Positions 14,118 through 36,466 of a stretch of 45,561 nucleotides of DNA are shown piece by piece. This DNA comes from a virus. The position numbers and the translations under genes are program-made. The stretch covers positions 1 through 45,561 of the IMG/VR virus record IMGVR_UViG_3300020123_000076, one strand, 5' to 3'. The notes under the pieces were generated by a model that saw only the letters and a list, made by a program, of their open reading frames with translations, had not been told where the DNA came from and did no database searches. Within the stretch, counting starts at the first letter, position 1; each line of letters begins with the position of its first letter.

Positions 14118-14234
14118 ATGATGAACTATTTCATTCTCGGCTGCGTTGCAGCCCCCTTGGCGATTTTGGTTGGCCTATTCGCTTGTGCTCTGTTCATGAC
14201 CGCGCCACGCCGTCACGTCCCGCCGTTGCAGTAG
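14118..14234 (+). CDS. 38-aa membrane peptide overlapping the tail gene end
   Basis: A strong GAGAGGAA precedes ATG 14118. The product (MMNYFILGCV) is a transmembrane helix (about 4-27) with a basic Pro-containing tail (APRRHVPPLQ). Its last 22 bases overlap the end of the convergent tail gene. Plausible as a small membrane protein like others in phage accessory regions. Confidence 0.45.
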   Translation: MMNYFILGCVAAPLAILVGLFACALFMTAPRRHVPPLQ

Positions 14235-16792
14235 CTCGTACTCGGCGCTGAGCAGAAAACGCCACTGTTGGTCGAATAATAGAACACGTTCGGAATAACC
14301 TTGTCCCCGTCCACATCCTCAACAGTCACGGACCAGTTAAGAGGGTGGGTTCCGATCTTTTGCCAAGTCTTGGCACCGTCCCAGTCTATCGACTGCCAGA
14401 TTCCGTAGACGCTGTTGCGCCAGCCCACAACGACGATGGCCGGATAGGTATGCCCAGGAAACGGAGCACCAAACCCGAATGACATGATCGAGCCGAAGTT
14501 GGTGTCAGAGGTAAAGTTCTGACCGCCATCGATCGACCAAGTAAGGAATCCGTTTGTTGAAGAAACATTCCAATCGCCGGTTGCTAGGAAGATGTGATCG
14601 GCGTTGCCAGGAACAGTCTTGATAATCCCGCCGAACTGCTTGTCCACTGACAGATTCGGGTTGCCCTTGATAACACAAGATGCGCCGCCACTGGTGCATT
14701 TGACCACGCCTTGAGCACCTGTTGAAGCCAATCCAGAATTAAAGAAAAAGAACGTGTTGGCGTTGACGCGATCGGCGGCGCATATCTTGGAGCGGTTGAC
14801 TGTTCTGAAAGGCCAGCCGCCGCCCGAAAATAGGATCGTGTCGCCACTATTTACGATTTGAGCCGCGTTGTTTTGCACGGTGACGGTTGTAGCGGTTTTG
14901 CCGGTGACAAGGGTGTGCTGGGGCAGCGCAGCGTTGTTACTCTGATCGTGTGCCGACATCACGCTGCCGATCACAATCCAGGACGGCACGGACGCAAAGT
15001 TCAAAACATTGCTTCCGGCTGCGGTTGATCCATTTGTAACCAGCGTGCCGACTTCATTGGTGATTGCAATGTTGTTCCAAGTCGTGCCGCCGTCAGTCGT
15101 ATAGTAAGGAGGCACATTGCCGCTGTTGCCGTCATTCGGAGCCCACATAAAGTTCGTTGAACTCGCCGCCGCCATGCAGCCTGCGTTGAGGTTTTGCGCG
15201 CTAATCCGAGATGGGACCGCAGGCATTGCGCTCCACGTCACGCCTTTGTCGCTGCTCGTGCCGGAATAACCTGTGTAGGAGCCGCTTTGGTTATCTGTCA
15301 GGGCGACGAAAAAATCGGTGTTGGCTGATGCCCAATCGATCGCGTAGGTGTGCTGAAGCGTCGCGCCATTCGTTGAGAAGCAACCGCGATTAGCGTCCAC
15401 TGGATAAGACGAATAAGGCATCGCCAAATTGACGAAACAGTTGATGTCCCAGGTGCCGACACTCAACTTCCCGCTCGTTGATGGAGAGGTAGCGAGAGCG
15501 CTTCCCAGCGATTCCTCGATGCCGGCCGTTTGCGAGGTGATGGTTAATGCGACGCCTGCTGTGGGGGGCGTCGCAAAGAAAACACCTTCCGCCCCGGTAT
15601 AGAGATGCCCTGAGTTATCGAACGCCGCCCCGCCGGGGAACATTCCCGATCCTAGTTGCTGATTAGCGATATACGGGACATCCGTTGAAATGAATGAAGG
15701 AGTCCCCGCAGTACCACTAGCTTTATTCCAAGTCACACCGCCATCGGTCGATATATTCGTTCCGGTATCCCCGCCAAAGCCGCCGCCTTCCCAAACGCCG
15801 ATATGACAAGTAATTGCTGCAGAACAGGCATTAGGATCAATGTCCAGGCCGACGCCGAATGTCGGGCCACTTGCAGGAGTTGACCAAGTAGTGCCGTTGA
15901 ATTTTCGTAGAACCCCAAGACCATTATTATTCGAATTATCGATGAAGAACAGATTGCCGAAACCATCGGCCTTCATCGCGTGGTGCGTGGTGGGGGTCGA
16001 AGTTGTCAGCGCCCAAGTCAATCCGCCGTCAGTGGACTTGTAGACCCCCGTTCCGTAGGACGAAACGTAGATGTTCTTGGTACAAACGCTTGCACTGTGC
16101 GGACATGTGACCGTCGTCCCCCCGCTGCTATCGAATGCGATGAGGTAGCCGCCGCCGCTGGAGGTGCCTGAAATAAGCCCTGGTGCGGAAACGGTGCCGA
16201 CTGCGAAGCAAGTGGAGCCCTTATCGAATGTCGCATACAGACTCGAAGCCAACGTCGCCATGTAGACAATGCTGGAGTTGGCCGGATCAACTGCAATGAA
16301 ATGCCCGTAGGATTTTGTGACTGTAGCCGCGTTCTGGGTCTGCGATGGCCCGCTATCGGATTGATGGGTGTAGCAGGTGGTGCCGAAGGATGCGGCCTGA
16401 TTGGAAGAATAAAAAACGCTGCCGTTGGTCTCGATCCAGATATTGTTAGCGTTGCTCGGGTCCGCAATTGCCTCACCGCAGCCGAGACCCAGCGGCCCTC
16501 CGGTGGTCGTATCGACGGTCGCCACGCCGATCGGCATGTTGTCGGTGCGATCGATCTGCGTCCATGGCGCATTCGAGATGCTGATGTAGCAGCCGTACTG
16601 ATCTGTACGCGCGAGCAGCAAGTTGGCCGATGGCAGGCTACTAACGCCGATCGCCGCGCCTGCGCCGCCGATCTTCACATGGGTAAATGTAACAGCGCCG
16701 CCCCCCACCTGAAAGATCGCGAAGTTTGCGGAAGCCGGGCCAAGAAGCAAACACGCGAGAAGAATTGCGAACCGCACAAACCACATTACCAA
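14213..16792 (-). CDS. secreted beta-propeller tail protein (sialidase/BNR-like)
   Basis: An 859-residue protein with a clean signal peptide (hydrophobic FAILLACLLLG, then ASA). The body carries repeated motifs of the BNR/Asp-box and YVTN-like type: VYKSTDGGLTWALTTS, NISTDGGVTWNKASG, GTSSDKGVTWSAMP, YYTTDGGTTWNNI, LTWSIDGGQNFTSD and SIDWDGAKTWQKIG. That is at least six S-x-D-x-G-x-T-W-like boxes, so a beta-propeller of sialidase or photosynthesis-factor type. As the last gene of the tail operon it is probably a host-glycan binding or cleaving tail component. A signal peptide on a virion protein is odd. Catalytic residues for sialidase are not evident. Confidence 0.7.
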   Translation of the reverse strand: MVMWFVRFAILLACLLLGPASANFAIFQVGGGAVTFTHVKIGGAGAAIGVSSLPSANLLLARTDQYGCYISISNAPWTQIDRTDNMPIGVATVDTTTGGPLGLGCGEAIADPSNANNIWIETNGSVFYSSNQAASFGTTCYTHQSDSGPSQTQNAATVTKSYGHFIAVDPANSSIVYMATLASSLYATFDKGSTCFAVGTVSAPGLISGTSSGGGYLIAFDSSGGTTVTCPHSASVCTKNIYVSSYGTGVYKSTDGGLTWALTTSTPTTHHAMKADGFGNLFFIDNSNNNGLGVLRKFNGTTWSTPASGPTFGVGLDIDPNACSAAITCHIGVWEGGGFGGDTGTNISTDGGVTWNKASGTAGTPSFISTDVPYIANQQLGSGMFPGGAAFDNSGHLYTGAEGVFFATPPTAGVALTITSQTAGIEESLGSALATSPSTSGKLSVGTWDINCFVNLAMPYSSYPVDANRGCFSTNGATLQHTYAIDWASANTDFFVALTDNQSGSYTGYSGTSSDKGVTWSAMPAVPSRISAQNLNAGCMAAASSTNFMWAPNDGNSGNVPPYYTTDGGTTWNNIAITNEVGTLVTNGSTAAGSNVLNFASVPSWIVIGSVMSAHDQSNNAALPQHTLVTGKTATTVTVQNNAAQIVNSGDTILFSGGGWPFRTVNRSKICAADRVNANTFFFFNSGLASTGAQGVVKCTSGGASCVIKGNPNLSVDKQFGGIIKTVPGNADHIFLATGDWNVSSTNGFLTWSIDGGQNFTSDTNFGSIMSFGFGAPFPGHTYPAIVVVGWRNSVYGIWQSIDWDGAKTWQKIGTHPLNWSVTVEDVDGDKVIPNVFYYSTNSGVFCSAPSTSYCNGGT

Positions 16793-17451
16793 TTCCCAAA
16801 GCCGGAAGGCAGAGAGCTTATTGTTGTTATCGTGTTGGCGTCGTTTTGCGCAGCGAACATCCCCATTGCAAAGAACGGTCCAGAGGCGAGAGCTACTGAG
16901 GTAAGGGCTATTCCGCCCACACCAGTTGCTGGGTTGGCACTACCGCCAGCGTTCCAGTTTCCTCCGTTGACCTGAATCCATACCAGCGCGTTCGTGATAT
17001 CGACGCACTCAATGACCGTATTGCCTGTTACAAATGAGGGATTGGTGGTTGTCGGGTTGGCGCCGTTGTACCAAATCTTGCCGTCTGAGGTGGCGCCAAA
17101 GCCATTGTTGTCGTTGCCGGGAAAGTTGGTGAGACTTTCCGTAGCGTTGCCCATGCCGATCATCCAAGTGGATGTCACCACATCGGCGTGGACTTGAAAA
17201 CAAAATTTTCCGGATGAATGGGATGCGACGCTCTTCACGGAATTGAAGCCGCCGCTTGCCCCCGTTTGGGTCGCGGTCAAACCCGCCCCATTCGATACCG
17301 TTATCTTGGCGGCGGCATTGCTGCTATCCCATGTCGTAGTGGACGGAGCGGCCGCTGGCACAGGCAGCGGGTCTCTCAACAATAAGCTTTTCTGCGCATG
17401 CGCTGGCGCGAAGCAAACAAGCGCGAACAGAACGGCTATGATCTTACGCAT
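16786..17451 (-). CDS. secreted lectin-like (SPRY/jelly-roll) protein
   Basis: ATG 17451 (MRKIIAVLFALVCFAPAHAQ) gives a textbook signal peptide; the frame upstream to 17712 is a shadow of the preceding gene. The 221-residue product contains TTTWDSSNAAAKITVSNGA, SGKFCFQVHADV, TSTWMIGMGNATESL and NDNNGFGATSDGKIWYNGA. This is the strand order of SPRY/concanavalin-like domains found in phage tail fibres. It overlaps the next tail gene by seven bases. Likely host-surface binding. No catalytic motif. Confidence 0.65.
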   Translation of the reverse strand: MRKIIAVLFALVCFAPAHAQKSLLLRDPLPVPAAAPSTTTWDSSNAAAKITVSNGAGLTATQTGASGGFNSVKSVASHSSGKFCFQVHADVVTSTWMIGMGNATESLTNFPGNDNNGFGATSDGKIWYNGANPTTTNPSFVTGNTVIECVDITNALVWIQVNGGNWNAGGSANPATGVGGIALTSVALASGPFFAMGMFAAQNDANTITTISSLPSGFGNW

Positions 17452-17458
17452 CGCCGCC

Positions 17459-18736
17459 TCAGTTCTGATGGATTTCAGGAATGACGGTGATCGTCTCGCC
17501 GCTCGCTGGCACGTAAGCCGCGCGGGCCTCAACCAGCGCGAACAGCGTCTGCGTCGAGGCCACCACGTTGCATTCGTTGCCATCGCCCGAAGTCGGCAGG
17601 CCAAAGCCGATCGACACGTCGGTTCCTGCTTCCCATGAGGCAACGGGAACGTCCATCTTGCAGACATAGTTGGCAAGCGTCGTTGACCACGCTGCGCCGT
17701 CGCCGTTCGCAATCGTCGGCGTCACGGTATAGAAGTGGATGCGGAACGAGGTCAGCGTGACCGACTTGCTCGAAAGCGTCATGCGGACACGGCGGATGTA
17801 GAAATTGCCGCCGCTCACTCGGGCCGCCGAGGTCCAGGATAGCGGAACGACCGAACCGGCAACTGTGTTGTTCGCTACAAGCTGACCGGAAGCATAGGCC
17901 GTGGTGTTGGCGGGCCGGGTGAAGGAATTCGACGGTGTGACGATTGCATCGACCGGGACTTGCGACTGGTTGCTCGCGATGACGACCGGCGAGGAGCTCG
18001 CCATTACCGCCTGACCGTTGGGATTGGAATTGTCGACGGTCGTATGCAACGAGCCTGCGTTAGTGCACGACAAGACGCCGACATGTCCCGTGGTGATCGC
18101 GGTATAGGAGTTGATGAACAGGCAGCCGATCGGCGTGATCGGAGTGGTGCCTTGGGTGAACAACGCCTCGTCGGCCAGAACCGCGAGCGCATTCGCAATC
18201 TGCGCCACATCGCAGCTCGCCGCATTGATCGGCGTGATGGTGACCGAGACCGTGCCGGCGGAATAGCTCGCCACATTGGCCCGCATGTTGGTGTAGCCCA
18301 TGTTGGGCACACAGAAGAACGCCGCGCCAGACTGGTTGACGACGGATGTGACCATGGCGCTGCCGCCCGCGACCGGCATCGCGCCGACCGACTGGAAGCC
18401 GACCACGTCGCTCGCCTGGAACTGGATCGTGGTGCCGCCGGTGCAATTGACCGAGCAGTTGACGTTGAACAGCGCCGCGCCATAGCCGGTCACCGGGACC
18501 GAGGTGCCGGTGGTGTTGGCGACGACGGCGTTGAGCGTGTTGCCGGCGGCGACGGTGGCTTGAGCCGCAGCCGCCGTGACGTTCGATGCGCAATTGCCGT
18601 CGCCCGTATTTGTCGCAAGGCTCATGCTGAACGCCGTGCCCGGGAAATCGTGCATCACCGCCGGACCCGTGCAGGTGGCCGCCGCGCTGACGACGCTTCC
18701 GATCAGGAACGCTAGAACGAGGGCAAGCTTTTTCAT
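17459..18736 (-). CDS. secreted beta-rich tail-associated protein (425 aa)
   Basis: ATG 18736 (MKKLALVLAFLIGSVVSAAA) starts a signal peptide and overlaps the small preceding gene by ATGA. The mature protein is rich in Ala, Thr, Ser and Val with paired Cys (FNVNCSVNCTGGTTIQF) and long beta-type stretches (NFYIRRVRMTLSSKSVTLTS). It resembles phage fibre or decoration proteins in composition but belongs to no family I can name. One of a run of four consecutive exported products from 14213 to 18736 and beyond. Confidence 0.6.
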   Translation of the reverse strand: MKKLALVLAFLIGSVVSAAATCTGPAVMHDFPGTAFSMSLATNTGDGNCASNVTAAAAQATVAAGNTLNAVVANTTGTSVPVTGYGAALFNVNCSVNCTGGTTIQFQASDVVGFQSVGAMPVAGGSAMVTSVVNQSGAAFFCVPNMGYTNMRANVASYSAGTVSVTITPINAASCDVAQIANALAVLADEALFTQGTTPITPIGCLFINSYTAITTGHVGVLSCTNAGSLHTTVDNSNPNGQAVMASSSPVVIASNQSQVPVDAIVTPSNSFTRPANTTAYASGQLVANNTVAGSVVPLSWTSAARVSGGNFYIRRVRMTLSSKSVTLTSFRIHFYTVTPTIANGDGAAWSTTLANYVCKMDVPVASWEAGTDVSIGFGLPTSGDGNECNVVASTQTLFALVEARAAYVPASGETITVIPEIHQN

Positions 18737-18921
18737 TTCAGCGCTCCGATGAAATAGATGTCGTTGCAGGTGTTGCTGAGGTCGTAGACGCCGGTCGATG
18801 TGCATGGCGCGGCGGCGCCAAACGGCTTGTTCGGCGGCCAGGATGGAATCTGTCCGACTTGAGCCAAGGCAACCGAGCAGAGCGCCAGCCAGGCGAATAT
18901 CGCGATCCGAAACAGTGTCAT
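18733..18921 (-). CDS. small secreted protein (62 aa)
   Basis: ATG 18921 (MTLFRIAIFAWLALCSVALAQ) gives a signal peptide followed by a mature part of about 40 residues with two Cys (AAPCTSTGVYDLSNTCNDIYF), suggesting one disulfide in the periplasm or outside. It overlaps both neighbours by ATGA, so it is made in step with two larger exported proteins. Possible chaperone or cement for them; function unknown. Confidence 0.6.
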   Translation of the reverse strand: MTLFRIAIFAWLALCSVALAQVGQIPSWPPNKPFGAAAPCTSTGVYDLSNTCNDIYFIGALK

Positions 18922-20870
18922 GCGCCGTCCCCCGTCAGGATCGCGACATTGGAGCTCTCGGTAAAAATCCCGATCACCGCCCATTGCCCGAATGTCTTGG
19001 TAAAGGAATGCGCGCTATGCAGGGTTGCCGGCGTCACCGCCGAGCCGTTGACGGCAACCTGCCCGGTGCCGGCCTGTTCAACCGCGATCGAGCATCCAAC
19101 CGACAGCCCTTGCGGAATCGTCGCGGTGACCGCGGCCGCGTTCGTAAAGCGCACCGTCGTGCCGCAATCGGCCGCGGCAAAGGTGTAGGTGGTACCCGAT
19201 TGTGTGGTGACGGTTCCGACTACCGTGCCGAAGGTATTCGTGCCGGACCAGATATTGGTGCCGCTCAACAATCCGCCGCAGGTGATGACGCCGGTTGAAA
19301 ACGTGCAGGCGCCGGTCACGGTGCGGAACAGCGGCGTGCCTCCGGTAAGCCCGAAAAAGATTTGATCATTAGTGGCAATGTTGGTCGTGAATGGTGCTGC
19401 ACCGGCGCCGCCACCGATCAGGACGCCATTGGCGTTGAGCAGGCCAGAAGTCGCCTGCTTGCCGTTTGCATTGAAGAACGGCACACCGCCGCTGGTGCCG
19501 AGCGGCACGGTCGATGGAATATTGTATTCGGTATTGGTGCCGGCATCGGTGACGGTCGACGAATTGGTCGGAACCGTTGCGCCAGCCTGAATAAAGACGT
19601 TGTTCGAACCGATCTTGGTGTTGGTGGAGGACGCGCCGACGGTCAGCCCGGCATAGGCCGACGGCGTGACGATCGTATTATTGTTGATCTGCGCGCCGTT
19701 GGCGTTGGTGATGCAGACCGGCGTCGGATTTCCGGTGCCGGCCAGGGTCGTGATACGATTGCCCATGATCACGGAGGTATCGACCTGGCGCGTCGATCCG
19801 CGAATGTCCACCAGACAATTGTTGCTTTCGGTGTTGGTGCCGTGCTGCTCCAAGATATTGTCGAAAAGCACGGGGGATGCGCCGCCATCCCACACCAGCA
19901 TCCCGCCGCTGCAGGACATGTTGTTGGCGCCGTCGACCAGGACACCGCTTGCGCCGATCACCAATTGGCCTTCGATGCAGGCACCGGTACCGGCCAGGGT
20001 GTTTTTGGTGACACGCATGGTGTCGCCGCCGAAATTGAACGTGATCGGATTCTGAAACGAGTTGAGCGGCCCGATCATGCCATTGGTGGTGCCGCCGGTT
20101 GCGTTGGCGGCAATGGCGGTGCCGCCCGACGTGTAAGCGTTGACAAAATTCGTGCCGGTCAAATCGATATGGGTGCTATCGACAACGGTCAGCGTCCAGG
20201 TGCCGTTGGCCTCCGTGGTGCCGCCGACGCCAGCCACGAACGCCTTCATGCCGGTGATCATGCCGGTCGTGGAAGAGACCGTCAGCCGCACCACGCCGCC
20301 AGCGCCGGCACCCGTGCCGCTGACGTTGACCGATGGCAGCGCATTGTTAAACCGGACCGCCTTGCCGTTCAGCGCCAAAACGACGTTATGATCGACCTGC
20401 GGGAATACGATGATCCCGGTGTTGGTGCCGGAGGTGTCGAAGTTGATGAAGTCTCGCGCGTGCGTACCAGCAGCCGAGAAAACCTTGAACCCGGAAACCC
20501 GCCATCCGTAGGGATTAGTGACGGCATTGGGCGTGAAGCGGAAGATATCGGTCGAATTTCCAACACCATCGACGATCAGCGCGACACAATTTTCCGCCGC
20601 GTGCAAATAGATCGGCTTGGTGCGGAGAAAGACTTCGGTACCGGAACCGGAGATCGCGTAGTTGCCGCAGGGGAAATCGAGTTCGCCGCCTTCGGGTGTG
20701 GCCGTAATCGCATTGCGGATCTGTGTGGTCTGATCGGAACCGTCGCCGAACGCTCCAAAGGAGCCCACGTTCGGAACCGATACGGACGTGCCAGGCGTGA
20801 CCTGGGCAAGGACCGGCGCAACCACAAGGGCAAGCGCCAGCGCCAGCGCAACAAGGCTGCGAAGCTTCAT
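18918..20870 (-). CDS. tailspike-like right-handed beta-helix protein with signal peptide
   Basis: A 650-residue protein. Signal peptide (residues 1-22, ending PVLAQ). Then VPNVGSFGAFGDGSDQTTQIR, the typical start of pectate-lyase-like phage tailspikes, followed by beta-helix coils (for example INNNTIVTPSAYAGLTVG). Residues about 187-255 hold an inserted module (GGVVRLTVSS, ANGTWTLTVVDSTHIDLTGT) also present in the gp10-like protein. The C-terminal third is Gly/Thr-rich and trimer-like (AAAVTATIPQGLSVGCSIAV). Probable role: depolymerase or adhesin. No catalytic residues identified. The signal peptide is unusual for a tailspike. Confidence 0.7.
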   Translation of the reverse strand: MKLRSLVALALALALVVAPVLAQVTPGTSVSVPNVGSFGAFGDGSDQTTQIRNAITATPEGGELDFPCGNYAISGSGTEVFLRTKPIYLHAAENCVALIVDGVGNSTDIFRFTPNAVTNPYGWRVSGFKVFSAAGTHARDFINFDTSGTNTGIIVFPQVDHNVVLALNGKAVRFNNALPSVNVSGTGAGAGGVVRLTVSSTTGMITGMKAFVAGVGGTTEANGTWTLTVVDSTHIDLTGTNFVNAYTSGGTAIAANATGGTTNGMIGPLNSFQNPITFNFGGDTMRVTKNTLAGTGACIEGQLVIGASGVLVDGANNMSCSGGMLVWDGGASPVLFDNILEQHGTNTESNNCLVDIRGSTRQVDTSVIMGNRITTLAGTGNPTPVCITNANGAQINNNTIVTPSAYAGLTVGASSTNTKIGSNNVFIQAGATVPTNSSTVTDAGTNTEYNIPSTVPLGTSGGVPFFNANGKQATSGLLNANGVLIGGGAGAAPFTTNIATNDQIFFGLTGGTPLFRTVTGACTFSTGVITCGGLLSGTNIWSGTNTFGTVVGTVTTQSGTTYTFAAADCGTTVRFTNAAAVTATIPQGLSVGCSIAVEQAGTGQVAVNGSAVTPATLHSAHSFTKTFGQWAVIGIFTESSNVAILTGDGA

Positions 20871-20892: not shown

Positions 20893-21423
20893 TTAGTAAG
20901 CGCCGGTGCCGTCCGGCAGCGGCGTCAAGATGATCGAGCCGCCGTTTTGATTGATCACATAGGAGTAGTTCACAACCGCGAGCTGCGTTTGCCCGGCCTT
21001 CGGCGTGATGGTGATGTTGTTGACCGCTGCATCGCCCTTGCCGTCGACGATGCGCAAGGGTCGTGCGCGCTGCGACCAGTCGACGGTTACCTGAAACGCT
21101 GCGCCGACGATCTGTTTCACGATCAGCACATCATCGGTCGGCAACGCGGCATAAGGCCCTGGAGCGGTGAGCACCTTAACGACCTTGCCGGCATTGACGA
21201 CCGCACCGATCGCAAGGTTTACGAAAACCCCCGTCAACGCATTCCAGGTCAGCACATAGCTGTTGGCCGGATCCGGTAGCACCTGCACCAGCGCCACGGC
21301 GGCGGGATTGAGCGAAACTGTCCATATCCCGTTCTGCTTCGAGATCGCGATCGGGCCGGCGCCTTTCGTCAGCGCCGGGAACGGCGCCGAGGCATTGATC
21401 CGGATATTGGCGGGCGTCGTCAT
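20893..21423 (-). CDS. conserved structural protein, unknown (176 aa)
   Basis: Starts MTTPANIRIN in ATGA overlap with the preceding gene. Beta-rich, with no signal peptide, in contrast to its neighbours. It includes KQNGIWTVSLNPAAVALVQ, YVLTWNALTGVFVNL and NNITITPKAGQTQLAVVN. This looks like the conserved phage-structure proteins that precede tailspikes in rhizobial phages, possibly a fibre anchor. Function inferred from place only. Confidence 0.55.
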   Translation of the reverse strand: MTTPANIRINASAPFPALTKGAGPIAISKQNGIWTVSLNPAAVALVQVLPDPANSYVLTWNALTGVFVNLAIGAVVNAGKVVKVLTAPGPYAALPTDDVLIVKQIVGAAFQVTVDWSQRARPLRIVDGKGDAAVNNITITPKAGQTQLAVVNYSYVINQNGGSIILTPLPDGTGAY

Positions 21424-22145: not shown

Positions 22146-23165
22146 TCACAACTTGATGTAGATGGTTGCGAGCATCAACGGCTGCGTGATGGAAAACGGC
22201 GTGCCGCTGCCACCGGAGGCCACGCTGATGCCGGTCGTTGCCGGATTGATCGTCAGAGGTGTAGTCGCATTGATGACCGTACCTCCCGCTATTCCTGCCT
22301 GCGCCGTGCCTGATTGGCTAAATGGAATTGTCCCCGTATGCGTGTGACCGGGATCGGTGACAGGGAAATTCAACGCCGGCAGATTGGCTTGCAGGAATGT
22401 TTGACTTTGCGACCCGCCCGCCGCGCCCAGCACCGTCGCCGCCGTGCCGAAATAGGTTGCCGTCAATCGCCCGGCCGCGCTGTTTCCCATGTCGTCGAGC
22501 GCCGCGATCGCCCGCCCGCGCCAGTCGGGCAACGTCAGCTGTTTTGACGCGTTGTAGTCGTTGAGCGCGTTGCCGGTGCGGCCGCCGGAGACCGCGAGAT
22601 TTGGATCGGTCGTGTAGAGATAGACGAACAGCGCCTGGGTGTCGGCGTTGGCGCGTTCCGAGCAGCCGCACGTCGCGTTGCCGATCGTCAGCCCATTGGC
22701 GCGGACAAAACCGGACAAGGGCCCGGTGCCGTATTTGACCTTGAGATCGCCGGACGCGAGGATCGTGGTCGGATCGACGGTGGAGCCGCCGCCTCCGCCG
22801 CCGGACGACGGGCCCAGCACCTGCATGGTGGTGTCGATGATCGAGACGCCGGTGGAATCCGTCAGGCGGACGTGAACCAGGCCGTCGGCGAGCCAGAACA
22901 TCGGGACTCTCCCGGCCTGGTCGCATTGCAGGATCGGGTTGGGATTTTGCGATAATCCGAAGTCGGAAAACGAATTCTGTGGGGTTGCGACCGTGCCGGC
23001 GACGAAGAAATTGACCAGGCAGCCGGCCAAGGGCTTGCCGTTGATGTCGACCTGCTGGGCCATGGCCAGCGGCAGGGTGCCGGCGGCAAGCGCGGGCGCC
23101 GTCCACAGGACTGAGGCCGTCGCCAGAGCGTAGGCAAGCGTTTTCAATCGCTTAAGCAGGTTCAT
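22146..23165 (-). CDS. secreted tail-collar-like fibre protein (339 aa)
   Basis: A signal peptide ends near ALAAG (residues 1-28). Residues about 30-125 form a beta domain (QQVDINGKPLAGCLVNFFVAG), then a Gly linker (GPSSGGGGGGS), then a collar-type region: GFVRANGLTIGNA, QLTLPDWRGRAIAALDDMGN, GGSQSQTFLQANLPALNFPVTD and HTHTG. The last block matches the phage tail-collar family. Its presence on an exported product is strange. Probably a receptor-binding or collar fibre. It is divergent from the plus-strand membrane gene at 23239. Confidence 0.65.
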   Translation of the reverse strand: MNLLKRLKTLAYALATASVLWTAPALAAGTLPLAMAQQVDINGKPLAGCLVNFFVAGTVATPQNSFSDFGLSQNPNPILQCDQAGRVPMFWLADGLVHVRLTDSTGVSIIDTTMQVLGPSSGGGGGGSTVDPTTILASGDLKVKYGTGPLSGFVRANGLTIGNATCGCSERANADTQALFVYLYTTDPNLAVSGGRTGNALNDYNASKQLTLPDWRGRAIAALDDMGNSAAGRLTATYFGTAATVLGAAGGSQSQTFLQANLPALNFPVTDPGHTHTGTIPFSQSGTAQAGIAGGTVINATTPLTINPATTGISVASGGSGTPFSITQPLMLATIYIKL

Positions 23166-25404: not shown

Positions 25405-27149
25405 CACTCACCCGCCTTCTTTTCGCGGATGCGCGCGCCGTTCGGCAGCGTCACCCAGCCTTCGGCATCGGGTTTGGTTTTGGACGCGCCGCCAGCGTTT
25501 CTTTTCGCTCCCGGTATGCCATACTCTTCTAGCGTTTTATCGAGCGCGGTCCGGGCCGAGCCTAGTTCGACTTCCATCTGGTCGAGCGCGGCGCCGATCT
25601 GGCCGTCGCTCCATGCCTTATCGAGCAACTCATGAGCGCGGTTCGTATCGGTTACCCCGATCTGTCCTACAGGTTTCAGGACGCGCGCATAAACCGGAAC
25701 CAGCGATTCAATGGCGATGCCAAGCTTGATGACATCCTTTCCGCCGGTTTTCTTCTTCGCGGCGTTGATCAGGCTGTTGATATCCGGATATTCCGTGCGC
25801 GAAACCCGAGCGGAAGCCTCTCGAACGCGAGGTATGAGTGTAGTCGCTTCGTTTTCCGCCAATTCGAGACCCGCCGCGCGGTTCTCAAGAGCCCGCCTAC
25901 CTGTCGCTTGCGCCTGAAATTTTTGCCATCGCGTCGGCCATTGATTTACGTCTCCACCTTCCGCGATTTCCTGTTCGGCTGCGCGGGTTCGGATTGCGGT
26001 TGCCTGTTGTTGTCCCTGTATTCCACGACCCATGTTCGGCGGGAGTTTTCCAGTTAATCGATACTGGTTTGCGTCGGCATCAAGCGTCGCACCCGCCTCG
26101 CCGCCTGCGTTGCCATAGGCCGCGGCCGCCGGCCCTTGATAGAGCGTTTTTCCGGTACGCGGGTCGACAAGCGTGGTTTGCGCTCCCACGGACAGCGGCG
26201 CGATCGACGCCTCAATGCGGTCCGCCCAGGCCCGCAGCTCGTCCGCCTTCGGTTTTGTCCGCGGGTTGGCCGCTTCGATTTGAGCGGCACGCTGGCGCAG
26301 CGCCATTGCCGCCTGTTGCGGATCATTGAACCCTGGCGGCAGTGGCACCTGCGGCACGATCGGGCCTTGCGCCTGCTGCTGCGGCGCCTGTCCGGCGGGC
26401 GCGGCAGGCGCGCCCTGCGGCTGCTGCGCCTGCGGCCGGGGTGATACGGCGTTCGCCGAAGGCGGCAGGCTCGGCGCGCCGCTGCCGTCGGCTGCGGCAA
26501 ACCGGCTTGCGAACGTGGACGGCGCCTCGGTTGACCCATCGCCCGGCGCATAGCGGTCGATCAAGACTTTGGCGCGGCGCTGCTGGCCAGGTGTCAGCAC
26601 CGCGTTCGGATCGACGCCCAAGAGCTGCGCGACCTTGCCGATCGTCTGGCCTGTGACAGCATCCTGTTGCGGCAATCGGTCGGTGACCATCGAGGCGATC
26701 GTGCCCTGCCCTGCATCGCCCTGCGGCGAGTTTTGGGCTGGCGGCGGCAGCGGGCGCGCCGGGATCGACGCGGGTGCAGCTCCGCCGCCCTGCCCGCCTG
26801 GCGCGGCAGGAAAGAGCGGCGTATTTCCCGCCTGCTGCTGTTGCAGCAACGGTGCCAGTTGCGTCAAGGCGTTGATATCGCCCTTCTGCGCCAGCATCGC
26901 GGCGATCCGGCCATAGTCGGGCTGGCCGGTTTGCGGATCGACAGGAAGGCCTCCCCTGAAGGTGCCGGCGATGTCGAGCCCCTGCTGGCCTGCGGCAATG
27001 CGCTGCTGGTTCAGCTTCTGCTGCTGCTCGTTGAAAATCTTCTGGTACGGATCATCCGCTGCCCAGTTGGAAAAATTGGCAAAGTTCATCAGCGGAGCGG
27101 CATAGCTCATGCCGCCCGGAGGTGAGACCCCTGAATCAAATCCGACCAT
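25404..27149 (-). CDS. internal virion protein with Pro/Gln-rich linkers (581 aa)
   Basis: Starts MVGFDSGVSP in TGATG overlap with the previous gene. The N-terminus has a helix (DPYQKIFNEQQQKLNQQRIA) then repeats of Gln, Pro and Ala (residues about 100-275, e.g. PQAQQPQGAPAAPAGQAPQQ) as flexible linkers. The second half is charged helix. Low complexity and place between two ejection candidates suggest a DNA-ejection or internal scaffold component. No catalytic motif. Confidence 0.55.
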   Translation of the reverse strand: MVGFDSGVSPPGGMSYAAPLMNFANFSNWAADDPYQKIFNEQQQKLNQQRIAAGQQGLDIAGTFRGGLPVDPQTGQPDYGRIAAMLAQKGDINALTQLAPLLQQQQAGNTPLFPAAPGGQGGGAAPASIPARPLPPPAQNSPQGDAGQGTIASMVTDRLPQQDAVTGQTIGKVAQLLGVDPNAVLTPGQQRRAKVLIDRYAPGDGSTEAPSTFASRFAAADGSGAPSLPPSANAVSPRPQAQQPQGAPAAPAGQAPQQQAQGPIVPQVPLPPGFNDPQQAAMALRQRAAQIEAANPRTKPKADELRAWADRIEASIAPLSVGAQTTLVDPRTGKTLYQGPAAAAYGNAGGEAGATLDADANQYRLTGKLPPNMGRGIQGQQQATAIRTRAAEQEIAEGGDVNQWPTRWQKFQAQATGRRALENRAAGLELAENEATTLIPRVREASARVSRTEYPDINSLINAAKKKTGGKDVIKLGIAIESLVPVYARVLKPVGQIGVTDTNRAHELLDKAWSDGQIGAALDQMEVELGSARTALDKTLEEYGIPGAKRNAGGASKTKPDAEGWVTLPNGARIREKKAGE

Positions 27150-28165
27150 CAGGCAGCCTCGAGGAAGCGCGCCAGATCAGCGGCATATCGGGTTGCCTTG
27201 TCGTACCGTACTGCCTTGTAGCCGCCGATTTCGACGACGGCCTCGGGATGGGTCTTCTCGACGTCTTGCGCCATCAGGCCAATCCGAAAGACGTTGTCGC
27301 CGATGTAGCGATACTTATAGACCGGCTGTCCATCGAACAACTCGCCGACCTGATCGACATCTTCCTTGAGACGTTCGTCGGAGAGCATCGGCAAGAACGA
27401 CATCAACGCCGAGCCGATGCCCGATACGGCGTTGCCGCCGACCGAGCCGCCGCCCGCGGTCTTCATGCCGCCGATGCCGCCGATCGCGTTCCAGATATTG
27501 CCCGATGCGTTATAGCGCGCCAGATCGGCGTTGGCGTTGGCATTGCCGATGCCGGTCTGCGTGGCGTAGCCGAGCTGGCCCAGCTGATTGTATTGATTGG
27601 CGGTCGCGTTGCCGAGCCCGGTATCGACATTGGCGATACCGCCGGCCGCCGCGTTGGAGGCGTTGAGAAACGGCATCAGATTCTGCACCGCCTGCTGATA
27701 CGTCGTGCCCGCGAGACCCTGGTTGAATTTCGACAGCGCCAGCGCCTGATTGCCGGACGCATTCATGCCGGTCGCTGCGGCCTGCGCGTTGATCGCGTTG
27801 TCACCCTGCTCGAGCTGGAACTGGTAGCCTGGCGTTGCCTGCAGCGCCTGCAGAATCGAGCTCGGTACGCTCGGCCCGACGCCGCCGCCCCCCGACGATA
27901 CGGGAGCACCTGTCGGCGACGATCCGACTGTTCCGGCCGAAGGCGCGGTGATGCCGAGCAGGTTCGTCAGTTGCCCGACGCCACCTTGCGCCGTGCCGTA
28001 GTTCTGCAGGTACGGCTGCAGCGCCTTGGTATAGTTGGTCTGAAGCGCGCCGATGCCCTGATTGATGTCGCCGGAGGCCAGGCTATAGCCGCTGTTGAGA
28101 CCGGCGATCTGCGCCTGCGCCGCATCCTTTGCGGGCTGGTCGGAGAAGATATCGAAGATGCCCAT
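27149..28165 (-). CDS. ejection/tail protein with C-terminal S74-like chaperone domain
   Basis: A 338-residue protein starting MGIFDIFSDQ in TGATG overlap. The middle is Gly/Ala/Asn/Gln-rich (GNATANQYNQLGQLG, NANANADLARYNASGN), like P22 gp7-type ejection proteins. The last 75 residues contain SDERLKEDVDQVGELFDG, YKYRYIGDN and GLMAQDVEKTHPEAV, the hallmark of peptidase-S74 intramolecular chaperone domains, which normally trim off a fibre after trimerisation. Ser/Asp at SDERLKED fits the cleavage site. S74 on an ejection-type protein is uncommon but is seen in rhizobial phages, as far as I recall. Confidence 0.65.
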   Translation of the reverse strand: MGIFDIFSDQPAKDAAQAQIAGLNSGYSLASGDINQGIGALQTNYTKALQPYLQNYGTAQGGVGQLTNLLGITAPSAGTVGSSPTGAPVSSGGGGVGPSVPSSILQALQATPGYQFQLEQGDNAINAQAAATGMNASGNQALALSKFNQGLAGTTYQQAVQNLMPFLNASNAAAGGIANVDTGLGNATANQYNQLGQLGYATQTGIGNANANADLARYNASGNIWNAIGGIGGMKTAGGGSVGGNAVSGIGSALMSFLPMLSDERLKEDVDQVGELFDGQPVYKYRYIGDNVFRIGLMAQDVEKTHPEAVVEIGGYKAVRYDKATRYAADLARFLEAA

Positions 28166-28407
28166 CAGACGACCCTCACCATCATGACCGATCCGTTGCG
28201 ATAAAATTGAAACAGCTGCACGCCTGCGGCTGCGGCCGCGGCGTCGTTGGCGGCGTTGACCAGGTTGGACGGCGCGTTGCCGGCGGAGATCGCGGCAACC
28301 AGCGCGTCCAGCTTGGCCATGTAGTCGCGAAACAACTGCGTCGGCTTGCCGTCGCGATCGGTGATTGGAAACGACGGATCGAATCTATTTTTGACCGGCA
28401 GCGTCAC
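28165..28407 (-). CDS. small conserved virion-associated protein (80 aa)
   Basis: GTG start at 28407 overlaps the preceding stop (GTGA). The product begins MTLPVKNRFDPSFPITDRDG with PTQLFRDYMAKLDALVAAIS, a pattern often found in small phage proteins next to tail hubs. Mostly helical, with an Ala-rich centre. Ends FQFYRNGSVMMVRVV. Likely structural; exact role unknown. Confidence 0.55.
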   Translation of the reverse strand: MTLPVKNRFDPSFPITDRDGKPTQLFRDYMAKLDALVAAISAGNAPSNLVNAANDAAAAAAGVQLFQFYRNGSVMMVRVV

Positions 28408-30110
28408 GGCGTGACCTCGCGCGGATCGGCCGACATGGTGGCTCCCATTAAGCCGCGATACACCGGATCGGTGATATCGACCCGCCAGCGCACGCCGCTC
28501 GGACCGGACTGGCCGCGGTTCTTGACGGATGCGCGCGAGCGCTTGGTCTTGCCCTGCGGCGCCAGCGATCGGATCGAGGGATTGTCAAACGTTACCCCGC
28601 CATCCTTCGAGCAGGAGATCGCGCATTGCGGATTGACGGCACCCACGGGTGCCGTGATGTCGGTCGCAACCCCGCCACTGACATAGGCATGAACGAACAC
28701 CGTTCCCTGCAGCTCGATGTGGGTTGCGTCCACGACTGTCATTCCGAACACCCCGTTGGCCTCGACCGTGCCCAAGACTCCCGCGACCTGCACCTGGTCT
28801 CCGGTTTTCGCCTGTGCCGTCAGGTTGACCGTGAGCCGCACCACGCCGCCGGTCCCGGCCCCAGCCCCCAGCACAATCATCTGGTAGTTGCCGACCGCTT
28901 GCCCCACGCCGAAGTCGAAATCGAAGTCTGCGCGCGCGATGCGCAGCTGATTCGGAAAATCCTTCACCGGTCCGGATTCGATTCGGAACAATTGGAACGC
29001 GCCGTCTTCGGAAAAATTCGTCAGGTCGTGGAACAGGAGGTTGCCACTCTGCTGGTCACCCACGATCCACTTGTTGAAAGCGGGATGGCCGCCTGTCGCG
29101 CGCCAGCGCCCGTACACCCCGCCATTGAGCGAGGAGCGCTCGTTCCACTTTTTCGTGGCGAGGTTGAATTCCCAGCTCCACGCCGGCGAGGAGATGTGCC
29201 ATAACTTCTTGCCGCCTTCCGAATAGCAGCCCGCCTCGAGCAGGTTGCCGGCCTTGACCTGCACCTCGATCAGGCGGTCGAGATCGGGCGGCGATACCTT
29301 TGTCGGCGCCAGCGAGCCCGGCGACATCCACCACACGCCAAAGTCGGAAGCCGCCCATAACAGCTCGGAAAATCCGGTTTCCCAGCCCGCGATGGCTGCC
29401 GACTGCGCAAGGCTCGTTTCCAGCGTGGTGAGCCGCGCATAGGGAAACGCGGGCGCCGCGTTGGCCGCGTCCTGCCATACCTCGCAGGATCCTGTGGTGA
29501 AAAACAGCATCACGTTCGAAAACGGGATGCCTCGGAGCAGCGTCACGTCGGCCTTGGCCTGCACGGTGATGAACGTCAGCGCATTCTGTGTCAGCGCATT
29601 CAAGCCGGAAGCAAACACCCGGCAGTCGGCGATGGTGAAGAAGAAATAGCCGTCCTGGTTACTGACCGAGTTCGGCTGCGGCAGCACCCCGCCTCCGGTA
29701 TAGTTGACCGGCGCGCCGCCGCCGGAGAGCTGATAGGCGCCGTTGTCGACGTCGACCGCGACCACGTCCGGATTGGCCGCCTGGTCGCGCGCGATCGAGA
29801 CCTTCTTGGCACCGGGAAACGCGCCTAGCACGTTGATGTTGCCGGCAGCGTCGACCGTCAGCGCGGTATTGAGAAACACCTCGTAAGACAGGTTCTTGAC
29901 CAAGAGCCCGCCGCGGTAGCCGGCTTGCGCGGTGTTGGCAAACCGTGTCAGGCCAGAAGAGCCGCGCCACACCTGCGGTGCCGGAGCAGATGGCTTTGAG
30001 GCTTCGCCCAGCGGCTCGGCATAGCAGTTGATCAGCCGCCCCGATCCTTCCTGCGGATTGGCGCCGGGGAAGGACGACAGCGGAAACGGGATGGTTGCAG
30101 GACGGCTCAT
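28404..30110 (-). CDS. P22 gp10-like packaged-DNA stabilisation/tail hub protein
   Basis: A 568-residue protein. The family pattern includes SFPGANPQEGSGRLINCYAE at the N-terminus, then repeated beta motifs such as NTAQAGYRGGLLVKNLSYEV, NGAYQLSGGG, YFFFTIADCRVFASG, LFFTTGSCEVWQDA and DFGVWWMSPG. This matches P22 gp10-type hub/plug proteins, which close the portal channel after packaging. Residues about 416-482 hold an inserted module (GGVVRLTVNLTAQAKTG, ANGVFGMTVVDATHIELQGT) shared with the tailspike at 18918-20870. The start is TGATG-coupled to the gp4-like gene, as in P22-like tails. Confidence 0.7.
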   Translation of the reverse strand: MSRPATIPFPLSSFPGANPQEGSGRLINCYAEPLGEASKPSAPAPQVWRGSSGLTRFANTAQAGYRGGLLVKNLSYEVFLNTALTVDAAGNINVLGAFPGAKKVSIARDQAANPDVVAVDVDNGAYQLSGGGAPVNYTGGGVLPQPNSVSNQDGYFFFTIADCRVFASGLNALTQNALTFITVQAKADVTLLRGIPFSNVMLFFTTGSCEVWQDAANAAPAFPYARLTTLETSLAQSAAIAGWETGFSELLWAASDFGVWWMSPGSLAPTKVSPPDLDRLIEVQVKAGNLLEAGCYSEGGKKLWHISSPAWSWEFNLATKKWNERSSLNGGVYGRWRATGGHPAFNKWIVGDQQSGNLLFHDLTNFSEDGAFQLFRIESGPVKDFPNQLRIARADFDFDFGVGQAVGNYQMIVLGAGAGTGGVVRLTVNLTAQAKTGDQVQVAGVLGTVEANGVFGMTVVDATHIELQGTVFVHAYVSGGVATDITAPVGAVNPQCAISCSKDGGVTFDNPSIRSLAPQGKTKRSRASVKNRGQSGPSGVRWRVDITDPVYRGLMGATMSADPREVTP

Positions 30111-31776: not shown

Positions 31777-32397
31777 TCAGCAAGCCGCGGCGGTCGCACC
31801 CAGCGGAATGCCGCCCGGCAGGCACGAGCCATCATTCGGCGCGATGTACTGAATGATGAAGATCACCTGGCCTTGCGTGCCTTGCGATCCTGCGGCGCCG
31901 ACGGTGTAGGTCGCATAGATGTCGAAGCCGCCGTCCGCGCCGGTTGCGGTTGCACCCGCACCGGTCACCAGTTCGCCCGCGCCGGCAAAGGCCGTGTTGT
32001 AGACGGCTGCGGTCGATGCACCGGTGAAGACGCTCAAGCCGGCCATCACGTTGGCGGATTGCCCGGAAGTGCCGAGCGCAACCGTTGCCGAGGTGGTCGG
32101 ATTGAACGTGGTGATGATCTGGCTCGAGATCGCCACCAAGAACGCATTGTACGGCACGTTGGCCACCCGCTTCGAGCACGCCGTATCGGCGGCGCGAAGC
32201 AGGCAATCGTTGAAGTTGAACGTGAAGCGGATGTACTGAACTTGCTGGTCGAGCGGCATACGCGGCGATAGCGATTGCGTCGGCGTCAGCGTCAGCGTGG
32301 TAGCAAAGAGTGGTCCGATGGCAAGCGATGCTACGCCAAGGGCGGCGAGCACGTTGACAACAATGCCAGCGAGCGCGCGCAAGAGTTTCTGTTTCAT
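31777..32397 (-). CDS. secreted late protein next to the capsid gene (206 aa)
   Basis: A signal peptide spans about residues 1-32 (MKQKLLRALAGIVVNVLAAL, then IGPLFA). The mature part is beta-rich with two Cys (NDCLLRAADTACSK) and many Thr/Ala/Gly residues (TTSATVALGTSGQSANV). It ends SCLPGGIPLGATAAAC, so a second disulfide is possible. One of eight late products with a Sec signal. Role unknown; a decoration or surface protein is a guess. Confidence 0.6.
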   Translation of the reverse strand: MKQKLLRALAGIVVNVLAALGVASLAIGPLFATTLTLTPTQSLSPRMPLDQQVQYIRFTFNFNDCLLRAADTACSKRVANVPYNAFLVAISSQIITTFNPTTSATVALGTSGQSANVMAGLSVFTGASTAAVYNTAFAGAGELVTGAGATATGADGGFDIYATYTVGAAGSQGTQGQVIFIIQYIAPNDGSCLPGGIPLGATAAAC

Positions 32398-32446
32398 GGT
32401 TGACCTCTTTAATCCGCGCGTTTTTAATGACGCGGGAGATGGGTTG

Positions 32447-33001
32447 ATGGCTGAAGAGTGGAGACCTTGCGCCGGTTACGAAGATTGCTACGCAATCTCC
32501 GATCTTGGCCGGCTTGCCCGGACTGCAACCTACGGACGCAATCCCAAGCGCTGTTGGAAACTGAGGGCACCCGCACTCAAGAGGGGTTACCGCGCCTATC
32601 ACATGAGCAAGGACGGCATTAACGAATATCGCCTTGCACACATTCTGGTCTGGTCCACCTTCAAGGGACCAATTCCAGATGGCCTCGAAGTCAACCACAT
32701 GAATGGAAATCGAGACGATCCGGCGCTTACGAACCTTGAGCTACTGACACGATCGGGAAACGCTGCTCACTCGTTCCGGGTACTCGGACGGGCGAACTTC
32801 AATGTGCCGCAACTCGGCTCAAGAAACGGAAGTGCCAGACTGACCGAAAAAGACATTCCGGAAATCTTCCGGCTTTCAGCCACTGGACTGCACCAATGGC
32901 AGATTGCCGAACGCTTCGGCGTGTCCCAACGGACCATTGGAATGGTGTTGAGCGGTGAGACGTGGCGCCATATTTCAGGCGCCACGCTCAAGACTGACTA
33001 G
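32447..33001 (+). CDS. free-standing HNH homing-type endonuclease (NUMOD4-HNH)
   Basis: ATG 32447 (MAEEWRPCAG); the frame is open upstream but only as a shadow. The 184-residue protein has a NUMOD4-like N-terminus (EEWRPCAGYEDCYAISDLGR), an HNH core EVNHMNGNRDDPALTNLELLT (about residues 81-101) and a C-terminal helix-turn-helix (LTEKDIPEIFRL, QIAERFGVSQRTIG). It lies on the opposite strand to the late operon, with its stop three bases from the capsid stop and its start 50 bases from the start of the secreted gene. This is typical of a mobile homing gene, here next to a conserved gene. No intron is seen. Confidence 0.85.
   Translation: MAEEWRPCAGYEDCYAISDLGRLARTATYGRNPKRCWKLRAPALKRGYRAYHMSKDGINEYRLAHILVWSTFKGPIPDGLEVNHMNGNRDDPALTNLELLTRSGNAAHSFRVLGRANFNVPQLGSRNGSARLTEKDIPEIFRLSATGLHQWQIAERFGVSQRTIGMVLSGETWRHISGATLKTD
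32961..32986. promoter_or_regulatory. hairpin just past the capsid stop
   Basis: A perfect 9-bp stem CGTGGCGCC (32961-32969)/GGCGCCACG (32978-32986) with an 8-base loop lies about 20 bases beyond the capsid stop on the minus strand. There is no U-run, so it is more likely a transcript-stabilising structure than a strong terminator. It overlaps the end of the HNH gene. Confidence 0.45.
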
Positions 33002-33003
33002 GA

Positions 33004-34167
33004 TCAATTGTCGGCAACGGCCGCAAAAAATCCTGTATAAACCCCCCAATCTTTAAAATTGCCGGTAGCGTTGAGCTTGGCGATCTTGCCGACGCCGTAG
33101 GCCATCTTGATGCCCGCGCCGCGGAGGAACTGATAATCGTCCTCCTTCAGGAAGGTCGGCGTCGGCATCTTGCCCCAGCACCAGGCGACCGCGCCCTGCC
33201 CGCAGAGATGGGCGGGAGCGATCTGGATGCCGGCAGCGCCCGCGGTCTGATAAAACACCGGCAGACGCAGCGAGAGCTCCGGCACTTCGCGGATGATCAC
33301 GCCGTTGTACAACAGATCGCCGTCGACGAAGATCGGGTTCTTCAAATAGCCCTGATTTTCCCTTGCTCGCGAGTTCTGGTTCGCGGTCTTGATGTCGGCG
33401 TCGTTTTGCGCGTCGCGGAACTGCTCCTGGCCGACGAACAGCACGAACCACTCGGTGCCGTTTTCCTTCAGCTTGAAGGGCCGGATGCGCGGGTTGGCTT
33501 TCTTGGCCGACCGCTTCATGCGGTTGACCAAGGCGCCCGACAGCGTCATGCCGGCGGTGATGTTGGCCATCGATCCGGCGAAGTTGCCGGCGATCAGGTT
33601 GGCGGTATTGCCACTTCCGATCAGGAGACGATCGGCATTGTCCGTGATCCAGGTGTTGCGCTGGGCGGCGGTTGCGAGATCGAACAGCACGCCGTTGACG
33701 CGCTGGCCGTTGGCGGAGCCAAGACCAGCAGGAGCTGCCTGTGACGGGACTGCGTAGAAGCCGTCGACGATCTCGTCGCGCTGCTTCTCCTGTCCCCAAT
33801 CGACCAGTGCGGGTTTGACTTCGCCCCACAGGTCGACCGAAGACTTTTGCTCTTCGGCGTTGTTGATGGTGACGGCGTTGCGGGCCCAGTCGATCCAGAA
33901 CCGCGTGCCCTGGTTGTCGAGCTGTTCCTCGTTGCCGCGCAGCGTGCCGGAGGCAACGCCTTGCGAATTGAGACGAGCACGCAACGGGATGTTGATCTGC
34001 TCGCCGCCGTTTTTGCCGCCCTTGTCGAGATCGGTGATCACCCGGATGATCGAGTTGATCGCGGTTCCCATGTAGGGCGAGAACAGGTTTTCGCGGACGT
34101 ATTCGCGATAGACCTCTTTTCGAAAGAAGATGAGTTTGTTGTTTGCAGCAGTAGTCGTCAGCGCCAT
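33004..34167 (-). CDS. major capsid protein
   Basis: A 387-residue protein (MALTTTAANN, KLIFFRKEVYREYVRENLFS) matching the DUF4043/phage-capsid-family type, with RVITDLDKGGKNGGEQINIPLRARLN, NNAEEQKSSVDLWGEV and GVYTGFFAAVADN at the C-terminus. The order scaffold-capsid-tail adaptor in the same operon supports the call. No cleavage site for a head protease is obvious. Size is usual. It shares a convergent junction with the homing nuclease. Confidence 0.8.
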   Translation of the reverse strand: MALTTTAANNKLIFFRKEVYREYVRENLFSPYMGTAINSIIRVITDLDKGGKNGGEQINIPLRARLNSQGVASGTLRGNEEQLDNQGTRFWIDWARNAVTINNAEEQKSSVDLWGEVKPALVDWGQEKQRDEIVDGFYAVPSQAAPAGLGSANGQRVNGVLFDLATAAQRNTWITDNADRLLIGSGNTANLIAGNFAGSMANITAGMTLSGALVNRMKRSAKKANPRIRPFKLKENGTEWFVLFVGQEQFRDAQNDADIKTANQNSRARENQGYLKNPIFVDGDLLYNGVIIREVPELSLRLPVFYQTAGAAGIQIAPAHLCGQGAVAWCWGKMPTPTFLKEDDYQFLRGAGIKMAYGVGKIAKLNATGNFKDWGVYTGFFAAVADN

Positions 34168-34290
34168 GGCTGAATTCCTTTTTGAAAAGGCTCAGCGCCA
34201 AGACGGGGCGTTAGATTGCAAACCGGCCTTACTGCGCAGCGTTAATCAGCCGCACGCAGGCTTCGTCATTTTGGAAAATCGCTTTGGGTC

Positions 34291-35370: not shown

Positions 35371-35570
35371 GATGGCAAACCTTTGACTGTTTCGCGTTTC
35401 GTCGCGATGACGGCAGTCCATATTCGAGAGCCTGCGCAAATTTGCGCAAGCCTCAACGCCAGGACCGAAGAAGAAGCGTTGCGCCGTATGGAGGACGCCT
35501 GCCGCCGGGTTTTGTAGTTCGGCAACCCGTAAACTGCCGCGCGCCGTCTGGTGGCGCCGACCGAACTTTT
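35371..35570. other. non-coding gap upstream of the scaffold gene
   Basis: Two hundred bases without a supported gene. It holds the palindrome at 35429-35448 and probably a ribosome-binding region for the scaffold; no promoter could be defined. A change in dosage between portal and scaffold/capsid genes may be set here. Confidence 0.35.
35429..35448 (-). repeat. 19-bp repeat with palindromic core (copy 2)
   Basis: The complement of the 19-mer at 6191-6209 occupies 35429-35447. The palindrome TGCGCAAATTTGCGCA lies at 35433-35448, in a non-coding stretch here. Confidence 0.5.
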
Positions 35571-35876
35571 CTAGCTGTCGAGCACGTCGCCCTTCGGCGC
35601 CTGCGCTTGCTTGGAATGCATCTCGACCGCTTTCGTTAGCGCGTCGGCGAGGATCAGCGCCGCGGCCGGTGAACATCGCAGGTGAGCCGTGCAGGCCATG
35701 TCAGCAGAAACCATGCCGTCGGACTTCGGCATCAGCACCCGCGCTGCGAGCTCGACCTCGATGTTGCCGGAATAGGTGCCGAATACGGGCGCGTTGTCGA
35801 AATAGACGATCGGCGCCGCGGCCGCGTTCTTTAAAAGCGGCGGCGGGCCTGAGACGGGTTTTCCCTTGATCGACAT
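35571..35876 (-). CDS. conserved small structural-region protein (101 aa)
   Basis: Starts MSIKGKPVSG in TGATG overlap with the previous gene. Contains IVYFDNAPVFGTYSGNIEVE and CSPAAALILADALTKAVEMHSKQ, a beta part followed by a helix. I recall similar small proteins in rhizobial phages between portal and scaffold, without known function. No export signal. Confidence 0.55.
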   Translation of the reverse strand: MSIKGKPVSGPPPLLKNAAAAPIVYFDNAPVFGTYSGNIEVELAARVLMPKSDGMVSADMACTAHLRCSPAAALILADALTKAVEMHSKQAQAPKGDVLDS

Positions 35877-36466
35877 CAGAGCTGGAACCCCCAGGCGTTG
35901 ACGGTTGCATTGGTTGATCCGGCGCCGAGCGAGGGCAGCGCAACGGGAATGGTGGTGTTGACGGCATTCGCCGGAACGCAGGGAGAAAACGGCACCACCA
36001 GCGACTGGTTGGCAAGCGTCACGCCAGCAACCGAAGCATAGGTGAACGTCAGGGTGCCCGTGATGGTGTTGGTGACCGTCGGCGAGACCACAGCGGCAGC
36101 GGTAGAGCCGGTCGAGGTGATCGCAAAGCCGCAGATGTAGGTGGTCTTACTGGCAGTAGCGGCGAGAGTTGCGGTTGCGGTTGCAGCCGCCACGTTGCCC
36201 GACGCTGCCGTGATCGGCGTTGCCGCAACACCCGTGGTGGTGTTCGACGGATACGGCGGAAACGACACGGGCGACGGCACCACGCCGGCGGCACTGCAAG
36301 GCACCGCCTTGTTGGAGGTGTTGAGGCACATGCCGAGCGCGCCGTTCACGCCGCCGTTGTTTGGCGTGTAGAAATACGTGTCGGTATTGGGCGACTGCGC
36401 CTGCGCCGGAAGAGCGGCGAGCGACAATAGGATGCAGGCGAATAGTCGCAAGAGCAGCGTTCGCAT
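35876..36466 (-). CDS. secreted late protein after portal (196 aa)
   Basis: Signal peptide (MRTLLLRLFACILLSLAALP, AQAQ at 21-24). The mature domain is Thr/Ala/Val-rich and beta-type (TNTITGTLTFTYASVAGVTL), with paired Cys (LGMCLNTSNKAVPCSAAG). It lies between portal and scaffold genes, where secreted products are not expected. Possibly an outer-surface or capsid-decoration protein. Confidence 0.6.
   Translation of the reverse strand: MRTLLLRLFACILLSLAALPAQAQSPNTDTYFYTPNNGGVNGALGMCLNTSNKAVPCSAAGVVPSPVSFPPYPSNTTTGVAATPITAASGNVAAATATATLAATASKTTYICGFAITSTGSTAAAVVSPTVTNTITGTLTFTYASVAGVTLANQSLVVPFSPCVPANAVNTTIPVALPSLGAGSTNATVNAWGFQL

Follow-up and report, generated by a model that had tools for sequence, protein, structure and literature searches.

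The virus recorded as IMGVR_UViG_3300020123_000076 probably builds its virion in two compartments, with the core assembled in the cytoplasm and outer parts that are exported, disulfide-bonded and joined to the core at lysis. To our knowledge, tailed-phage assembly is taken as wholly cytoplasmic up to lysis. The window, by which we mean the whole stretch of DNA analysed (one IMG/VR virus record of 45.6 kb, 45,561 nt), has a long minus-strand late operon, and it is strongly supported that eight products of this operon bear Sec signal peptides and are exported.

Signal peptides were called with a purpose-written log-odds model of the n-, h- and c-regions and the −3/−1 cut site (not SignalP), on which eleven well-known exported proteins of E. 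coli score 4.9–16.9 bits. Among 46 annotated genes of E. coli K-12, the 11 that scored above 4 bits were outer-membrane, periplasmic, fimbrial or lipoprotein genes together with GfcA, annotated as inner-membrane; cytoplasmic and multi-pass membrane proteins all stayed at −4 bits or below. The eight late proteins scored 6.0–18.1 bits and none of the window's 31 remaining proteins reached −3.3 bits, which bears out the preliminary description, where eight late products with Sec-type signals had been claimed. By the model, all eight combine a basic start, a hydrophobic core and small residues at −3/−1, as expected for Sec and signal peptidase I. When the first 40 residues were shuffled (500 trials), the observed score was reached 0–1 times in seven proteins and in 12/500 trials in the weakest, the product of 31777–32397. 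Seven of the starts listed earlier were kept as given; the eighth, a TTG at 16792, is better moved to the ATG at 16786, which overlaps the stop of the preceding gene (TAATG). The genes starting at 18921 and 18736 likewise share bases with the stop codon before them (ATGA), and these three starts are therefore not arbitrary. With such overlaps, and with the signal retained in every case after the start review, it is unlikely that the true starts sit downstream of the hydrophobic segments. A further positive of the model, 9618–9998 in the lysis region (11.6 bits), has the appearance of a single membrane span and was left out of the eight.

All eight genes lie on the minus strand. The most upstream product, encoded in the interval between portal and scaffold (35876..36466; signal 36398–36466, cut ALPAQA/QSPN, 15.9 bits), is probably a virion decoration. 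In its family, 12 of 13 distinct homologues are signal-bearing and four Cys are conserved in close relatives; the structure model was too poor to name a fold, and the fold search gave nothing at E ≤ 0.001. In L012 (6012–8225), L137 (6215–8227) and L138 (6660–8703) the same slot is occupied by signal-bearing proteins too, encoded by one or two genes and differing from one relative to another, which makes it an exchangeable exported cassette. Next among the eight come the capsid cement protein (31777..32397; signal about 32302–32397, mature from TTLTL, 6.0 bits) and the tail-collar fibre (22146..23165; signal 23085–23165, mature from AGTLPL, 12.2 bits), the latter matched over residues 24–338 by the tail protein profile phrog_8763 (E 9e-42). 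A beta-helix-like tail spike (18918..20870; signal 20805–20870, mature from QVTPGTS, 18.1 bits, 10 Cys) shares the mature start QVxPGT with loci L129, L082 and L168. The remaining four are a small protein of 42 aa when mature (18733..18921; signal 18862–18921, 10.5 bits, 2 Cys), a protein with a weak H-type lectin match (17459..18736; signal 18683–18736, 15.5 bits, 10 Cys; Pfam E 0.046, below cut-off), one with a weak SPRY match (16786..17451; signal 17395–17451, 17.6 bits, 2 Cys; phrog_10080 E 5e-14) and a beta-propeller-like protein (14213..16786; signal 16727–16786, 16 Cys; sortilin-like E 1.5e-4, below cut-off), which scored 12.1–12.7 bits (12.1 bits for the gene as listed here). The earlier domain guesses were thus fair, with the collar confirmed by its profile and the propeller (BNR/sortilin-like), SPRY and H-lectin assignments remaining weak matches. 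For the spike-like proteins, position and family point to a location on the virion. Paired Cys had been noted in several products, and the pattern proved stronger: from 36466 to 16786 the mature proteins contain 4, 4, 4, 10, 2, 10, 2 and 16 Cys, all even numbers.

As a whole, the genome is best explained as that of a temperate podovirus of the P22/Pam1 type that infects Bradyrhizobium-type bacteria. An integrase gene is present (Pfam E 6e-25), and terminase, portal, major capsid protein (MCP), head closure (Hc3) and further structural genes can be identified. The late genes are arranged as in the P22-like cyanophage Pam1, with the MCP (33004..34167, minus strand; phrog_334, E 1e-73), portal (36485..38500, minus strand; phrog_156, E 2e-81) and Hc3 or needle-head (28404..30110, minus strand; phrog_578, E 1e-49) families in Pam1 order. 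These three served as core references; they have no signal, nor was one found in 107, 55 and 97 homologues, respectively. The MCP has relatives at 89–91% in Bradyrhizobium sp. YR681 and a bacterial MAG, and more distant ones (38–53%) mostly in Rhizobium, Sinorhizobium, Neorhizobium, Chelatococcus, Methylobacterium and Devosia; a Bradyrhizobium-type alphaproteobacterium is therefore the most likely host.

Several other minus-strand genes of the window deserve mention. The late operon is headed by a gene for a phage-encoded NusG-like transcription factor (44085–44768; PF02357, E 2e-10), possibly its antiterminator. A conserved 447-aa protein (39117–40460), ATP-grasp-like by eye, occupies the terminase/portal interval in most close relatives and had no match in Pfam or PHROG searches. 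The product of 27149–28165, among the head and ejection genes, ends in a Peptidase_S74 (endosialidase chaperone) domain (E 4e-8) and has neither signal nor Cys. Finally, the 11311–12312 product has an N-terminal match to the Pam3 gp28 holin family (PF23987, E 5e-7); as another hydrophobic stretch, around residue 145, ends in AQAQ, it may be a holin fused to an exported domain.

By fold, position and sequence, the 31777–32397 product is a cement protein of the Pam1/KHP30/GP4 type, with a predicted Ig-like beta-sandwich. Its structure model is of good confidence (pLDDT 83.8), and in a search of 350,542 PDB chains ranks 1–4 were the cement proteins of Pam1, KHP30, GP4 and KHP40 (Z 10.1–8.8), the next row having a Z of 7.2. 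The gene lies directly downstream of the MCP gene in the window and its relatives, as in Pam1. A profile of the family matches gene 74 of RHph_Y1_10 (E 2e-15), a signal-less gene that also follows the MCP; comparison with Pam1 gp6 gave E 0.16 by sequence (hhalign) and Z 10.1 by fold.

Mechanical gene calls in about 240 related loci, many of them metagenome contigs, were then scored with the signal model. Conserved signals in related phages had been proposed as a check, and they were found across these loci: 50 of 61 distinct cement homologues, 48 of 105 collars and, as above, nearly all members of the portal-adjacent family are signal-bearing. No signal was called in 804 distinct core and other non-outer proteins of the same loci, a set made up of terminase, the 39117 protein, portal, scaffold, MCP, adaptor, needle head, ejection-type proteins, tail adaptor and lysozyme-like proteins. 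Judged from sequence, export signals are limited to outer virion proteins and the core is without them. The high Ala content and the purpose-written predictor could suggest that Ala/Leu-rich starts of a GC-rich genome mimic signals by chance, but this is extremely improbable given that 0/804 core proteins of the same genomes score as signals, that shuffled starts rarely reach the observed scores, that conservation of the pattern extends over about 240 loci and that overlaps with preceding stops support several starts.

Comparison of signal-bearing and signal-less homologues located the cut. In the window cement protein the homologues put it at GPLFA/TTLTL, and five signal-less members of the family begin where the signal-bearing ones are cut. 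Signal-less collars mostly start with M-AGTI or M-AGSI, and signal-bearing ones read A/AGTI, A/AGTV, A/AGTL or A/AGSI. A Met before Ala is normally removed, and both collar routes should therefore give the same mature end. The preliminary description had also suggested that the hydrophobic starts stay uncut, as anchors or as membrane-active virion segments during ejection, a process that does need membrane-active proteins. We consider this very unlikely, since signal-less homologues start at the cut site, the signal diverges more (23–33% identical) than the mature part (35–53%) with the AxA pattern kept, and true ejection-type proteins have no signal. Moreover, the N-terminus of Pam1 cement contacts the capsid (PMC9698820), where a hydrophobic tail would obstruct.

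In a collar tree of 82 members, the signal label switches state 15 times or more, with five or more of these changes on well-supported branches. The signal goes with a pair of cysteines, Cys22/Cys54 in mature numbering, which the window collar has. Among signal-bearing collars the pair is complete in 38/48 and absent in 10/48, a single Cys never being seen, whereas among signal-less collars it is complete in 0/39, with neither Cys in 34 and one in five (Fisher 1e-15, kinship ignored). Independent pairs on the starred branches of the tree gave three for and none against the link between signal and Cys pair, too few for significance. The signal-less collars L126, L201, L222 and L109 keep one of the two Cys, and some of them sit among signal-bearing relatives on the tree; such one-Cys forms are possible relics of recent export loss. 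In signal-bearing cement, several different Cys pairs occur in different sublineages, the two Cys of a pair co-occurring and being gained or lost together, and signal-less cement has almost none. The contrast extends to all proteins. Among those of at least 120 aa with any Cys, the number is even in 88% of signal-bearing proteins vs 43% of the others, and this is unchanged by clustering at 30–70% identity (86–88% vs 42%). Cys density in proteins of at least 120 aa is threefold higher in the signal-bearing class (1.40 vs 0.48 per 100 aa). Oxidation of the exported parts, with formation of disulfides, is thus strongly supported by sequence.

The tail spikes provide a further comparison. In phages with signal-less spikes, the tail-adaptor domain, which in the window is a stand-alone minus-strand gene (20893..21423; no signal, nor one in any of 39 homologues), is fused to the spike in one chain of 305–949 aa, and an exported spike followed in 0/43 cases. 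In phages with an exported collar and a separate adaptor of 154–185 aa, the adaptor is signal-less and the next gene or genes encode exported spikes in 26/26 cases (25 by script, L167 by eye). The chain is therefore divided between what stays inside and what leaves. We rejected the idea that all outer parts switch together, as 11 phages keep a fused signal-less spike beside an exported collar; the parts therefore switch one by one, and the system is not all-or-none. The start at the cut site, the Cys pairs and the split spikes are three natural experiments that support a cleaved and functional signal. On balance we favor, for the lineage as a whole, a core made in the reducing cytoplasm and Sec-exported, oxidised cement, fibre and spikes that would be joined only at lysis, the lineage having moved repeatedly between the two routes as a signal was added or lost precisely at the mature N-terminus.

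Several observations bear on where the virion obtains its outer parts. No second, signal-less copy of cement or collar was present in nine loci (seven contigs or records) checked, and a good second start near the cut was found in 1 of 50 collars and 6 of 54 cement proteins. Dual starts yielding exported and cytoplasmic forms were rejected for this scarcity of good internal starts. With cement and collar single-copy in the nine loci and second starts few, there is no evident alternative from which the virion could obtain these proteins. Export of a protein is seldom complete, and an escaped share might assemble in the cytoplasm with the exported share in a second role; such dual roles would explain why the collar is retained. 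That the virions are finished in this or some other way despite export nevertheless appears improbable to us, given the rarity of second starts and a Cys pairing that is almost universal in signal-bearing forms. A somewhat different possibility is that the exported proteins are not meant for the virion at all and remain periplasmic or surface-bound in the infected cell or lysogen, blocking receptors or superinfection. Phages do encode exported superinfection-exclusion proteins, export is indicated by sequence also here, and some of the proteins are carbohydrate-binding or adhesin-like. This explanation is unlikely, though, in that the eight include a cement protein without reason to act on the cell surface, that a virion with single-copy cement and collar would have none, and that all eight genes belong to the late structural operon. 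Among the three readings offered in the preliminary description, addition of virion parts after export is by far a better fit than display on the cell or membrane anchoring.

In the two-compartment model, the filled head and short tail would be built in the cytoplasm. The outer proteins (cement, collar fibre, spikes and other decorations) would pass SecYEG and lose their signals to signal peptidase I; in the periplasm they would fold, form disulfide bonds and be stored. At lysis the holin would open the inner membrane, so that particles meet the stored proteins and are decorated, cement going onto the capsid surface and collar and spikes onto the tail. The phage would thereby gain outer proteins that are oxidised and hardy. 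Joining at lysis is a step that we infer. P22 tailspike, T4 Soc and lambda gpD show that outer proteins can bind finished particles in vitro, and this uptake by finished heads makes late joining feasible and the lysis step plausible; unlike the proteins described here, those three are cytoplasmic and have no signal peptide. It counts against the lysis model that, once the cell has lysed, dilution outside it would work against the joining of parts unless this is fast.

Among the nearest known systems, Pseudanabaena phage Pam1, a P22-like podovirus with a cryo-EM structure and cement gp6, has the same terminase-portal-scaffold-MCP-cement-adaptor-needle head order, an MCP 33% identical and the cement of closest fold, but neither its cement nor its tailspike bears a signal peptide. 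The cultured Rhizobium phage RHph_Y1_10 (MCP 28% identical) likewise has a cement homologue after the MCP, but without a signal. The cement proteins of Helicobacter KHP30/KHP40 and Ralstonia GP4 are Ig-like trimeric capsid-surface proteins (Z 8.8–9.5; PMC9698820), and the trimeric state and surface location of the window protein are predicted. In the GP4 structure paper, cement is traced from Ala2 and a signal peptide is unmentioned, whereas most homologues of the window cement are signal-bearing. Signal-bearing forms of cement, collar, adaptor or portal-adjacent protein were absent among the matches in 50,697 cultured-phage records, and the literature searched, outside which most subscription journals fall, held no direct report of signal peptides on outer virion proteins of tailed phages. 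Filamentous phages have virion proteins with Sec signal peptides (pIII, pVIII), some with disulfides made in the periplasm, but their particles are unrelated and leave an unlysed cell by extrusion through the membrane.

Of 266 genomes of the genus to which Bradyrhizobium sp. YR681 belongs, about 19 contain a full-length collar homologue, and 12 of 18 loci examined are signal-bearing; the system is therefore accessible in bacterial isolates. Because the signal is a clean N-terminal unit, present in some homologues and missing from others, the idea is directly testable in Bradyrhizobium prophages. If it is true, phage particles would have a second place of assembly, periplasmic disulfide chemistry would have a part in making them, and the rule by which a protein with a signal peptide is taken not to be a virion protein would be a wrong filter in phage annotation.
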